From Trichlorobacter lovleyi (GTDB lineage: Bacteria; Desulfobacterota; Desulfuromonadia; Geobacterales; Pseudopelobacteraceae), in NCBI GenBank assembly GCA_020721175.1, contig DYNH01000004.1:1-32132 (forward strand): a stretch of 32,132 bases of DNA. The letters are read 5' to 3'. Position numbers and translations under genes: made by a program. This document shows, piece after piece, positions 4,668 through 23,793 of the stretch. Numbering within the stretch: position 1 is the first letter of the stretch; each line of letters starts with the position of its first letter. The notes beneath the pieces were generated by a model. That model searched no databases, was not told the origin of the DNA, and saw only the letters and a list, made by a program, of their open reading frames with translations.

Positions 4668-5177
4668 ATGGCTACCACTGCCCTGGTAAAAAGCGGAGAT
4701 GTAACCACAACCGGTGGAGACCAGTTGATACAACTGGTTAGTTTTATGCTTAGCAATGAAGAATACGGTGTAGAGGTCTTGAAGGTTAGAGAGATTATCA
4801 GGATGCCTGGCATTACCAAAATGCCTAATACACCACCATATGTGGAAGGCATTATAAACTTGAGAGGCAAGGTAATTCCAATCATCTCAATGCGTAAACG
4901 TTTTGGATTATCAGAATCAGACCATGACAGTCATACCAGAATTATGGTCATGGATGTTGCAGGAGGCTTGACCGGTTTTATTGTTGATGCTGTTTCAGAG
5001 GTAATCAGAATCCACTCCAGTGAAATTCAGCCCCCACCTACCATGGTTTCGGGAAATATTGATCAGGAGTTTATTACCGGGGTTTTCAACCACTCGGACC
5101 GACTTCTGATTATTATGGATGTTGACCGGATGTTCTCTCCCCAGGAACGGGAGTATTTTGGTGGTGTAGGGGATTAG
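4668..5177 (+). CDS. cheW: Chemotaxis coupling protein CheW
   Basis: 169-aa ORF with CheW signatures (QLVSFMLSNEEYGVEVLKVREIIRMPGITKMPNTPPYVEGIINLRGKVIPIISMRKRFG); SD aggaggt upstream of ATG. Confidence 0.93.
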   Translation: MATTALVKSGDVTTTGGDQLIQLVSFMLSNEEYGVEVLKVREIIRMPGITKMPNTPPYVEGIINLRGKVIPIISMRKRFGLSESDHDSHTRIMVMDVAGGLTGFIVDAVSEVIRIHSSEIQPPPTMVSGNIDQEFITGVFNHSDRLLIIMDVDRMFSPQEREYFGGVGD

Positions 5178-5225: not shown

Positions 5226-5364
5226 GTAGAGGTCTCTTGCTAAAACCCTTAATTGCCTCATTTCGGCTAAAAGCCTTTCGGAATCCAGATTTTAACTGCC
5301 TGAAAAGACTGGATCCACGATAGAGGCCTTCGGCTATGACAATCTTTTTGAAAGAGCCTCGAAT
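5226..5364 (+). repeat. MITE/REP-like element, subtype 1, copy A
   Basis: Reads tagaggtctcttgctaaaa...ctttttgaaagagcctcgaat. The inner 84 nt (5279-5362) align without gaps to the reverse complement of 6916-6999 with roughly ten differences. Left end more diverged than right end. Confidence 0.75.
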
Positions 5365-5384
5365 GTTTGAATTTTTTAGAGATA

Positions 5385-5415
5385 TCCGGTGGTCTTGCTT
5401 TGCTTGACCACCGGA
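5385..5415 (-). terminator. Strong hairpin directly downstream of the flavoprotein gene (possible terminator)
   Basis: TCCGGTGGTC (5385-5394) pairs with GACCACCGGA (5406-5415): 10-bp perfect stem, 11-nt loop, 6 nt past the end of the minus-strand ORF. U-tract is weak. Confidence 0.5.
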
Positions 5416-5421
5416 ACCCGG

Positions 5422-6765
5422 CTAATTTTCAAATTGTACAATTGCTTGTGTAGCTGCCAAGTGTAACAGATATTTATTTGGTGCGAACGTACCCATTGGC
5501 TGGGTTGCGTAATTATATGCAAATAAATTATATGCTGTTGCATTGTTTTGTATTGCTATCCCAATTCCATTAATCATTTCAGCAACCTGATCATTACCTG
5601 CCAACTGGGCTCCCAATAACTTAAGGTCACTATTATCAAAAAAGAATGTCCCTCTGGTCTTGACTGCCCCGGGCAATTTTCCGGGATGTCTGTTAAATTC
5701 AGAAACTTCTACCTGAATTACGCCATAGCCGGCATCTTCGCATTGTTGTCTTGTCATACCTGCCGCAGCAAAGTAATCTCCTTTAACGGCTGTAGAAAAC
5801 AGATTTGTTATACCAACCGGACTCATTAATTTCTTTTTTCCCAATAGATTATAGGCCGCATTTCTGCCTTCTTTGGATGCAATTGAAGCCAGCCTGATGT
5901 TACTTACTTCATTTGTAAACAGGTCAATTTTAGACGCACAGTCACCAATCGCCATTATGTTGGGGTCGCTGGTACGCTGATATTCATCTACCTTGATTGC
6001 AGAACGGGAATCCAGCTCCAGCCCTGCCTCTTTTGCCAGTGATGAGTTTGGTACTGCACCAATGACAAGAAATACAATGTCGGCATCAATAAATTCACCG
6101 TTACTCAGCTTGACTTTTTGAACAGCCCCTGTGCCGCTGAAGCCCTGCACTGAAATCCCTGTCAGGACATTAATTCCATGTAATTTCATTTTTTCTTCAA
6201 TTTCTATTGAATATTTCGCTTCAAAAGCAACGCTGAGACAATATGGGGCATATTCAACAAGCGTAATTTTTTTTCCAGACAGGTGACTTATTTCATCAGC
6301 AAGTTCTACACCAATAAAACCGCCACCAACTATTACAACTGACTTGGCTGCTTCTACCTTAGCCCTTAAATCAACGGTCTTATCCAGATCCTTTTCTATT
6401 ATGTAAATGCCTTCCAAATCTATCCCTTCAAACTTGGGTTTAATCGGATTGGAGCCTGTTGCCAAAACAAGCTGATCGTAAGCTACAGGATCGTTATTTT
6501 TTAAATAGACTTTTTTTTCATCACGATTTATGGAGATTACATCATCAATCACCAATGTGGACCCCTGATCTATTATTTCAGTGTCTGCTGATAAATTATC
6601 ATTCGGGTCTTTCAGAACTCCTAATGCATATGGAATACCGCAAGGAACAGGGGCACGTCTGTTGCTTCTTATAACTGTATGTGTGACATCTTTATTAAGT
6701 TTTTTAGATGTAATTACGAAGCCTTTAGCTGCCACACCACCACCAATAACTACTACCTTGTTCAT
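5422..6765 (-). CDS. FAD/NAD(P)-dependent pyridine nucleotide-disulfide oxidoreductase, CoA-disulfide reductase / NADH oxidase-like
   Basis: Starts MNKVVVIGGGVAAKGF with GGAGG SD at 6771-6775; conserved Cys motif VPCGIPYALG; second Rossmann VVIVGGGFIGVELADE; FAD-binding IMAIGDCA. The upstream ATG at 6813 is less likely. Confidence 0.85.
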   Translation of the reverse strand: MNKVVVIGGGVAAKGFVITSKKLNKDVTHTVIRSNRRAPVPCGIPYALGVLKDPNDNLSADTEIIDQGSTLVIDDVISINRDEKKVYLKNNDPVAYDQLVLATGSNPIKPKFEGIDLEGIYIIEKDLDKTVDLRAKVEAAKSVVIVGGGFIGVELADEISHLSGKKITLVEYAPYCLSVAFEAKYSIEIEEKMKLHGINVLTGISVQGFSGTGAVQKVKLSNGEFIDADIVFLVIGAVPNSSLAKEAGLELDSRSAIKVDEYQRTSDPNIMAIGDCASKIDLFTNEVSNIRLASIASKEGRNAAYNLLGKKKLMSPVGITNLFSTAVKGDYFAAAGMTRQQCEDAGYGVIQVEVSEFNRHPGKLPGAVKTRGTFFFDNSDLKLLGAQLAGNDQVAEMINGIGIAIQNNATAYNLFAYNYATQPMGTFAPNKYLLHLAATQAIVQFEN

Positions 6766-6913
6766 AAAACCTCCATTTTCTGAATATTTAATCTGCTTGA
6801 CTATTTGATACAAGCAGTTGAAACACTGTACACTAATTTAACTAATATAAGATAATTTTAATTTAATAACAACGCCATCATTTTTTAACCTAGCATTATC
6901 AAAATTGCGTTAC

Positions 6914-7052
6914 ATATGAGGTTCTTTCAAAAAGATTGTCATCCCCGAAGGCCTCTATCGGGGATCCAGTCTTTTCAGTTGTTTAAAATCTGGATTCCGG
7001 CTTAAAGCCTGCCGGAATGACACAATTCGGGACTTTTGAAAGAGGCTCATAT
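6914..7052 (-). repeat. MITE/REP-like element, subtype 1, copy B (inverted relative to copy A)
   Basis: Terminal inverted repeats ATATGAGGTTCTTTCAAAA (6914-6932) and TTTTGAAAGAGGCTCATAT (7034-7052), 17/19 matching. Internal palindromes CCCCGA..TCGGGG and TTCCGGC..GCCGGAA. Confidence 0.85.
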
Positions 7053-7247: not shown

Positions 7248-7691
7248 TTATGCGGCGGTGATGACTACCTTAAGGTTTGCTGTTACCTCAGGATGAATCT
7301 TGACTGTCACAGTATATTCTCCCACTTTTTTGATAGATTCGGCCAGTACAATTTTTTTGCGGTCAACTTCAATGTTGTTAACTTTCAGAAATGCCGCAAT
7401 CTCCATATTGGTCACAGAACCAAACAGCTTGCCTTCATCTCCGGCTTGGTGGGTGAGATTAATAGCAAGTGCCTCAAGTCTGGCAGCAAGATTTTTTGCA
7501 GCTTCAAGTGTTTTGTTCTTTTTGTATGCAAGTTGACGTTTGGTGTGTTCAAGGGCTTTTGCGTTTTTTTCTGTAGCCTCTATAGCTAATCCCTTGGGTA
7601 ACAGGTAATTGCGGGCATAGCCAGGGGCAACTTTGGTAATATCACCAATCTGCCCCAGATGTTCGATGTTTTCTTTAAGTATAACCTTCAT
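7248..7691 (-). CDS. rplI: 50S ribosomal protein L9
   Basis: MKVILKENIEHLGQIGDITKVAPGYARNYLLPKGLAIEAT is the L9 signature. Start set to ATG at 7691 with upstream gaaaggagaaat SD; the 174-aa ORF call includes a spurious N-terminal extension. Confidence 0.97.
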   Translation of the reverse strand: MKVILKENIEHLGQIGDITKVAPGYARNYLLPKGLAIEATEKNAKALEHTKRQLAYKKNKTLEAAKNLAARLEALAINLTHQAGDEGKLFGSVTNMEIAAFLKVNNIEVDRKKIVLAESIKKVGEYTVTVKIHPEVTANLKVVITAA

Positions 7692-9563: not shown

Positions 9564-9707
9564 GTAACCACTCAGCACACTATCAAATATAGTCATTACC
9601 GAGTGTGTAATCCGGAATCTGGTGTTGGCTCTAAAAACATATCCTCGATAGATGCATTCGGGGATGACAGACTTTTTTTGGCAAGCTCAATTATGCTGAT
9701 TAGTTAC
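9564..9707 (-). repeat. MITE/REP-like element, subtype 2, copy C
   Basis: Terminal inverted repeats GTAACCACTCAGCACA and (reverse complement of right end) GTAACTAATCAGCATA, 13/16. Interior aligns to the reverse complement of 23647-23793 (GGAATCTGGnGTTGGnTCTAAA..., TCGGGGATGACAGAnTTTTTTT). Confidence 0.8.
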
Positions 9708-9739: not shown

Positions 9740-10573
9740 TCATGAGTAACAAATAAGAATATTGTTACATAAGGGACAACGAACAGAAAGGGGCTTATTA
9801 AGTGAAGGAATCCTTAGTTGCTGTTCACAGCAGATGCACCTGAAGGTTATTGTGGCCTTTTTGAGAAAGACATCAAATTTGCTGGCAAGATTTCCTATAA
9901 AGGTTTTTTTTATATACGGGCGTTTCAGGTTTTTGATAAAAAAGTCCTTGCCGGCATCATGGAATTCCTTTGAATGGCCGTATATCAACAGATCTGACGA
10001 ATCCTGCTGCAGCAGAAAATCTCTTTTGGCCAGTATATAACCAACCTCATACTGTGTTATATACCCAAAAGAATGCACTGTTGTAAGATTAGTTCCAAAT
10101 GACATCTCCTCAAATGATGAATTAAGTATAAGGCAGGAACACCCAAGAAAAGATGCTGTTGTGTCGGTTAGAACTTCATTACTGAACGTGTCGTCTATCC
10201 TGATGTTTTTTCTATAGAGATATATATGGGCTATTTCATGCGACAGAATGGCTGATAAAAAATTGGTGTTGGATTGATATCTTATATCTATCTCAATAAA
10301 AAATATGTTTCCAGATGAAAGCTCTACCCTGCCAGGCACGCCTAAATTAGCGACAAAAGTTACTACAACCTTTGTGATATTCAAACCAAAGTGATTGGCT
10401 ATCTGTTTGGCAATGTTTTGCGTATATATAACGATATTACTATGAAAACACCTGTGATCTAAAACCAGGTTGGTTTTAAAATCCGGAATGAGAAATGAAC
10501 CGAGAGATTTGTACAACAGGCTGATATAGGAATTGATAGAACTGATATTTTTGAATCTGTCTTTTTCATTCAT
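9740..10573 (-). CDS. Putative zinc metallopeptidase (HEIAH motif) with C-terminal zinc-ribbon-like Cys pairs
   Basis: 277-aa ORF; FLSAILSHEIAHIYLYRKN followed by NEVLTDTTASFLG as a possible third-ligand helix; C-terminus FRCICCEQQLRIPSLNKPLSVRCPLCNNILICYS. Confidence 0.65.
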   Translation of the reverse strand: MNEKDRFKNISSINSYISLLYKSLGSFLIPDFKTNLVLDHRCFHSNIVIYTQNIAKQIANHFGLNITKVVVTFVANLGVPGRVELSSGNIFFIEIDIRYQSNTNFLSAILSHEIAHIYLYRKNIRIDDTFSNEVLTDTTASFLGCSCLILNSSFEEMSFGTNLTTVHSFGYITQYEVGYILAKRDFLLQQDSSDLLIYGHSKEFHDAGKDFFIKNLKRPYIKKTFIGNLASKFDVFLKKATITFRCICCEQQLRIPSLNKPLSVRCPLCNNILICYS

Positions 10574-23646: not shown

Positions 23647-23793
23647 GTAACTATTCAGCGTAATAAGCAGAGCTTGCAAAAAAAATCTGTCATCCCCGAA
23701 CGATTCTATCGGGGATACGGCTTTAGAACCAACTCCAGATTCCCGATTGCACCCTCGGGAATGACACAATTTGATAGCGTGCTGAATGATTAC
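23647..23793 (+). repeat. MITE/REP-like element, subtype 2, copy D (inverted relative to copy C)
   Basis: Terminal inverted repeats GTAACTATTCAGC and (reverse complement of right end) GTAATCATTCAGC; interior TGTCATCCCCGA..TCGGGGAT and ATTCCCGA..TCGGGAATGACA palindromes. Fills the gap between two convergent genes. Confidence 0.85.

Follow-up and report, generated by a model that had tools for sequence, protein, structure and literature searches.

Inverted MITE copies around a flavoprotein gene of Trichlorobacter lovleyi: most probably two independent insertions of one dispersed family

The inverted repeats that enclose a flavoprotein gene in a stretch of 32,132 nucleotides from Trichlorobacter lovleyi (contig DYNH01000004.1 of assembly GCA_020721175.1, hereafter called the window) belong to a transposing MITE family. 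We consider it very probable that the two copies, A and B, were inserted independently, that they belong to a dispersed, non-autonomous family for which a putative IS5/IS1182-like DDE transposase acts in trans, and that the bracketing of the gene is due to chance. The striking picture of a gene bracketed by inverted repeats can arise from copy density alone, and in this case target-site duplications (TSDs), copy ages and the count of chance pairs settle the bracketing question without experiments. The data establish the family, its ends, TSDs and copy number and the relative ages of A and B, and from them we infer the kind of transposase and a horizontal origin of the gene.

The repeat pair and its family

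A repeat search of the window recovered an inverted pair at positions 5279–5366 and 6912–6999, consisting of 88 nt that are 89% complementary and separated by 1545 nt, and thus confirmed the mirror arrangement that an earlier note on this DNA had described. The same note had given both elements a length of 139 bp, which is a few bases too long on each side. With the ends fixed by terminal inverted repeats (TIRs) and by alignment with other genomic copies, copy A occupies positions 5229–5360 on the minus strand (132 bp) and copy B positions 6918–7048 on the plus strand (131 bp); both are of type 1. Copy B is young. It has full TIRs, differs from the family consensus by 5 substitutions (3.8%) and, as comparison of its flanks revealed, lies between two ATAT duplications at 6914–6917 and 7049–7052. 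Copy A is old and decayed, and with 28 substitutions in 131 positions (21.4%) it is the most diverged type-1 copy. Its inner TIR at 5346–5360 is intact, its outer TIR is degenerate (GAGGTCTCTTGCTAAAA), and the outer 49 nt on the cheW side, where most of its differences from the consensus are found, are badly decayed; a good match between A and B is confined to the 82–84 nt nearest the gene. Alignment yielded no TSD for copy A, which is flanked by GGTA and GAAT, and this copy is too decayed to reveal whether it ever was a simple TSD-flanked insertion.

The designation of the repeats as MITE-like was right, since TIRs, TSDs and a high copy number are all present. The consensus element is noncoding and multicopy (about 100 family-I copies or fragments), its 131 bp fall within the 50–500 bp of such short elements, and it runs from GAGGCTCTTTCAAAA to TTTTGAAAGAGGCTC with two inner stem-loops and 15-bp terminal repeats, GAGSCTCTTKCAAAA, at both ends. 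When the TIR pattern was searched in the element's own genome with at most one mismatch, 168 matches were obtained, compared with 0 for a reversed-pattern control, and copy B as the query gave 40 scored matches (155 candidates). Sequence retrieved from this genome in the vicinity of the matches, 293 kb in total, contained 100 copies or fragments of this family, family I, and 22 of a second family, numbers that include fragments and are lower bounds within the fetched sequence. A TSD of 4 to 6 bp is carried by 30 of the approximately 58 complete elements, a figure derived from 69 candidate end pairs by subtracting overlapping combinations; exact 4-bp TSDs were found 25 times, as opposed to a mean of 1.1 and a maximum of 4 in shuffled sequence. 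Across 46 copies of types 1–3, 98% of cells preserved the predicted stems, and changes on both sides were seen in four pairs. Family I had not been catalogued before; nothing matched in Rfam, a literature search with the end sequences found no paper, and one with the core sequences gave, among the papers listed, unrelated primers only. The Chunjie MITE of Geobacter uraniireducens, as a review describes it (PMC10969869), is likewise dispersed and non-autonomous, has TIRs and direct repeats and occurs in dozens of mostly intergenic copies along with many partial ones; its length is 178–235 bp versus 131 bp here.

The source of the sequence is a draft metagenome-type assembly of 2.07 Mb in 174 contigs that is 85% complete with 4.1% contamination. 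Many of its contigs break off within these elements; C93, C106, C124, C131, C13 and C9 terminate about 50–90 bp inside family-I copies, from which it follows that the MITEs fragment the assembly.

Origin of the mirror arrangement

The proposal of two independent insertions, one of three histories put forward in the earlier note, is borne out by the separate ATAT/ATAT duplication of copy B, by the very unequal ages of A and B and by a spacing that is expected by chance at the given copy density. Chance alone predicts about 8 pairs of family members within 1.7 kb of each other, and about 14 were seen, several of them inverted, so the A/B pair is not special. As there is also no duplication across the A+B unit, with GGTA to the left of A and ATAT to the right of B, the insertions appear to have taken place independently and at different times. 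Mechanistically, an IS5/IS1182-like transposase would bind the 15-bp ends, and insertion would duplicate 4 bp, sometimes 5–6 bp. Copy A would have landed near cheW long ago, or may sit where the DNA was later rearranged, and would then have decayed. The insertion of copy B, into the stretch that separates the flavoprotein gene from the rplI terminator, would be recent. With roughly 100 copies or fragments spread over some 2 Mb, a mirror-image pair such as this would have come about by chance.

The genetic environment offers some ground for a different history. The cheW gene (4668–5177, plus strand) forms a genus-conserved block with genes for UbiD and a HK; what comes next in the genus is an MCP gene instead of rplI. 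The rplI gene (7248–7691, minus strand) belongs to a conserved block with rpsF-rpsR-DUF2232, next to which most relatives have a CorC-like gene. The cheW|rplI junction is absent from the relatives compared, congeners carry the two blocks at different loci (with over 0.8 Mb between them in G005), and the CorC-like and MCP genes, the usual neighbours, sit on other contigs here. Because the former neighbours are found elsewhere, cheW|gene|rplI must be regarded as a rearranged junction. Recombination between MITEs could have created it, in which case copy A, lacking a TSD, would mark the breakpoint, just as IS copies without TSDs frequently mark recombination (PMC11708052). We judge this unlikely. 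Synteny with G005 is preserved in 9 of 28 MITE-bearing gaps (32%) versus 3 of 11 MITE-free gaps that measure 100 bp or more (27%); breaks are thus no more frequent in MITE-bearing gaps than in size-matched ones, the repeats were rejected as markers of synteny breaks, though the numbers are small, and the rearrangement can therefore not be credited to them. Neither the CorC side nor the end of the MCP contig bears a clear MITE relic, and the missing TSD of copy A is equally well explained by decay.

Far less probable is a composite mobile unit, in which A and B would have moved the flavoprotein gene jointly via their outer ends. Such MITE-flanked units exist in the literature: the TIME and TIME-COMP elements of Pseudomonas are mosaic and non-autonomous, have 38-bp Tn3-type ends and 5–6-bp TSDs, and pairs of them can bracket and move unrelated DNA (PMC4133298). 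The AT-richness of the gene, the lack of a close homologue in genomes of the same genus and a junction not seen in relatives would also fit acquisition as one unit, which the earlier note had considered. This history is already contradicted by the ends, since no composite TSD exists at the left of A and the right of B, copy B has a TSD of its own, and the required pair of functional outer ends of similar age is not there, copy A being far older (21% versus 3.8% divergence) with a degenerate outer TIR.

The least probable history is an invertible segment, flipped by homologous recombination of A with B. The substrate would be the two inverted elements of about 131 bp, in which an 88-nt block is 89% alike. 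No sign of inversion was found, the still matched flanks of copy B (ATAT/ATAT) show that any A × B recombination after the insertion of B has not left the segment in the opposite orientation, and the ten mismatches in the best block would probably make recombination inefficient. As neither repeat is located within the gene or its terminator, flipping would not clearly switch the gene. Among the relatives, none that is close has the same gene pair minus the repeats, and no empty site could be read.

A MITE relic that seemed apparent by eye at the CorC–sucD junction was unsupported by alignment. The MCP orthologue, L244 (G000:C6, 4017–5144), stops 51 bp short of a contig end that is free of MITE sequence. 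Between rpsF, whose upstream neighbour differs in G005, and lspA, the window contains an open frame of 277 aa (9740–10573, GC 36%) that lies beside a repeat of the second family and has no match in Pfam or NCBIfam.

The flavoprotein gene and the candidate transposase

The enclosed reading frame (5422–6765, minus strand) is a real gene, and its product is a CoA-disulfide-reductase/NADH-oxidase-like flavoprotein, i.e., an FAD/NAD(P) pyridine-nucleotide-disulfide oxidoreductase. With members of this family (TIGR03385; PDB 6pfz and 3icr) it has the FAD/NAD(P) and dimerisation domains in common as well as a candidate redox-active cysteine, which resides in APVPCGIPYALG (PCG motif). The scores are low, however: the protein reaches 212.8 bits with TIGR03385, for which the cut-off is 578.8 bits, and all other equivalog scores are likewise far below their cut-offs, so that the assignment stops at the family and does not extend to a substrate. 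The impression by eye that the gene is AT-rich against its neighbours held when composition was computed. Its GC content is 40.0%, compared with 46.1 ± 3.5% for the 24 other genes of the window (z −1.8), and its GC3 of 32.1% versus 44.0 ± 4.6% (z −2.6) is the lowest of the 25 window genes. No homologue with more than 33% identity was detected in 27 related genomes, 14 of them from the same genus, and the best match in a plasmid collection, with 41.7% identity, stems from Peptoclostridium acidaminophilum. Judged by composition and distribution, it is plausible, albeit not proven, that the gene is lineage-specific or arrived horizontally. A scan for promoters and terminators returned no more sites than in shuffled sequence, and hence there is no case for copy B driving the flavoprotein gene.

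A candidate for the mover of family I was found in a congener. Genome G003 (L216, L214) contains an insertion sequence with GAGCCTCTTGCAAAA at both ends that is broken at contig ends. These ends carry the same 15 bp as the family-I MITE, and the transposase, split by the contig ends, is represented by fragments that encode N-terminal and C-terminal parts with DUF772-like (E = 0.0069, below the cut-off for this domain) and DDE_Tnp_1 signatures (E = 6e-6, above its cut-off). DUF772 plus DDE_Tnp_1 is the domain pair of IS5/IS1182-type transposases, and the G003 fragments, as a candidate partner of the MITE, would resemble IS1182-family elements in this combination. Extrapolating from the congener, the mover of family I is likely an IS5/IS1182-like (DUF772 + DDE) insertion sequence. 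No such transposase was found in the 85% complete draft genome itself, either with the protein fragment or with PF05598; the autonomous copy may have been lost or may be hidden in an assembly gap. One member of the IS1182 family, IS1272, for which ends and targets alike are inverted repeats, replaces its stem-loop target without a TSD, whereas the family described here leaves 4-bp TSDs (PMC5678879).

Combinations of ends and cores in related genomes

Family-I ends are not tied to a single core. The GAGSCTCTTKCAAAA ends enclose cores of types 1, 2 and 3, which are mutually related, and a type-4 core, a TTCGACAAGCTCA palindrome; in G035 the same ends surround a CCCCCCTTAGATAAGGGGGG core, and in G002, G005, G009 and G011 a GC-rich one. 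Among these four groups (types 1–3, type 4, CCCCCCTTAGATAAGGGGGG and GC-rich) no similarity was detectable. Conversely, the TTCGACAAGCTCA core resides within at least four sets of terminal repeats (L323–L352 in G000, G014, G018 and G026), namely GAGNCTCTTTCAAAA in G000 and G014, CCTGATTAGCGC with 8-bp duplications in G014, AGGTGATTCGCRRCAAAGA in G018 and TGATGCACTCGCAAA in G026 and G014. In the plasmid collection the type-1 core was unmatched, and one arm of the type-4 core was matched in Comamonas.

These combinations would fit the idea that MITE ends and cores are exchangeable modules in this order, such that one GAGSCTCTTKCAAAA end set with its 4-bp TSD is combined with unrelated palindromic cores of 95–110 bp, the TTCGACAAGCTCA core is shared by four or more end sets, and stem-loops have perhaps been captured repeatedly by different transposases; we see the chances that this holds as even. 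Some transposases attack stem-loops, which is perhaps the reason for core capture, and by analogy the stem-loop targeting reported for IS1272 (PMC5678879) may offer a route. Independent assortment of ends and cores, if true, would help to explain why the same stem-loop repeats occur inside different mobile elements of distant bacteria.

Elsewhere in the genus and order (L186, L187, L195, L211 and others), family-I ends were seen around a CCCCCC...GGGGGG stem and around GC-rich TACTGCGGAGGCCGTC cores that are unrelated to those of the window. The second MITE-like family is represented in the window at 9564–9680 and 23677–23793 and, in the fetched sequence, by 22 or more copies or fragments. Its core is similar to that of type 3 in family I, and its ends, judged by eye, look different (GTAACTATTCAGC-like), so that one core is common to two sets of ends.
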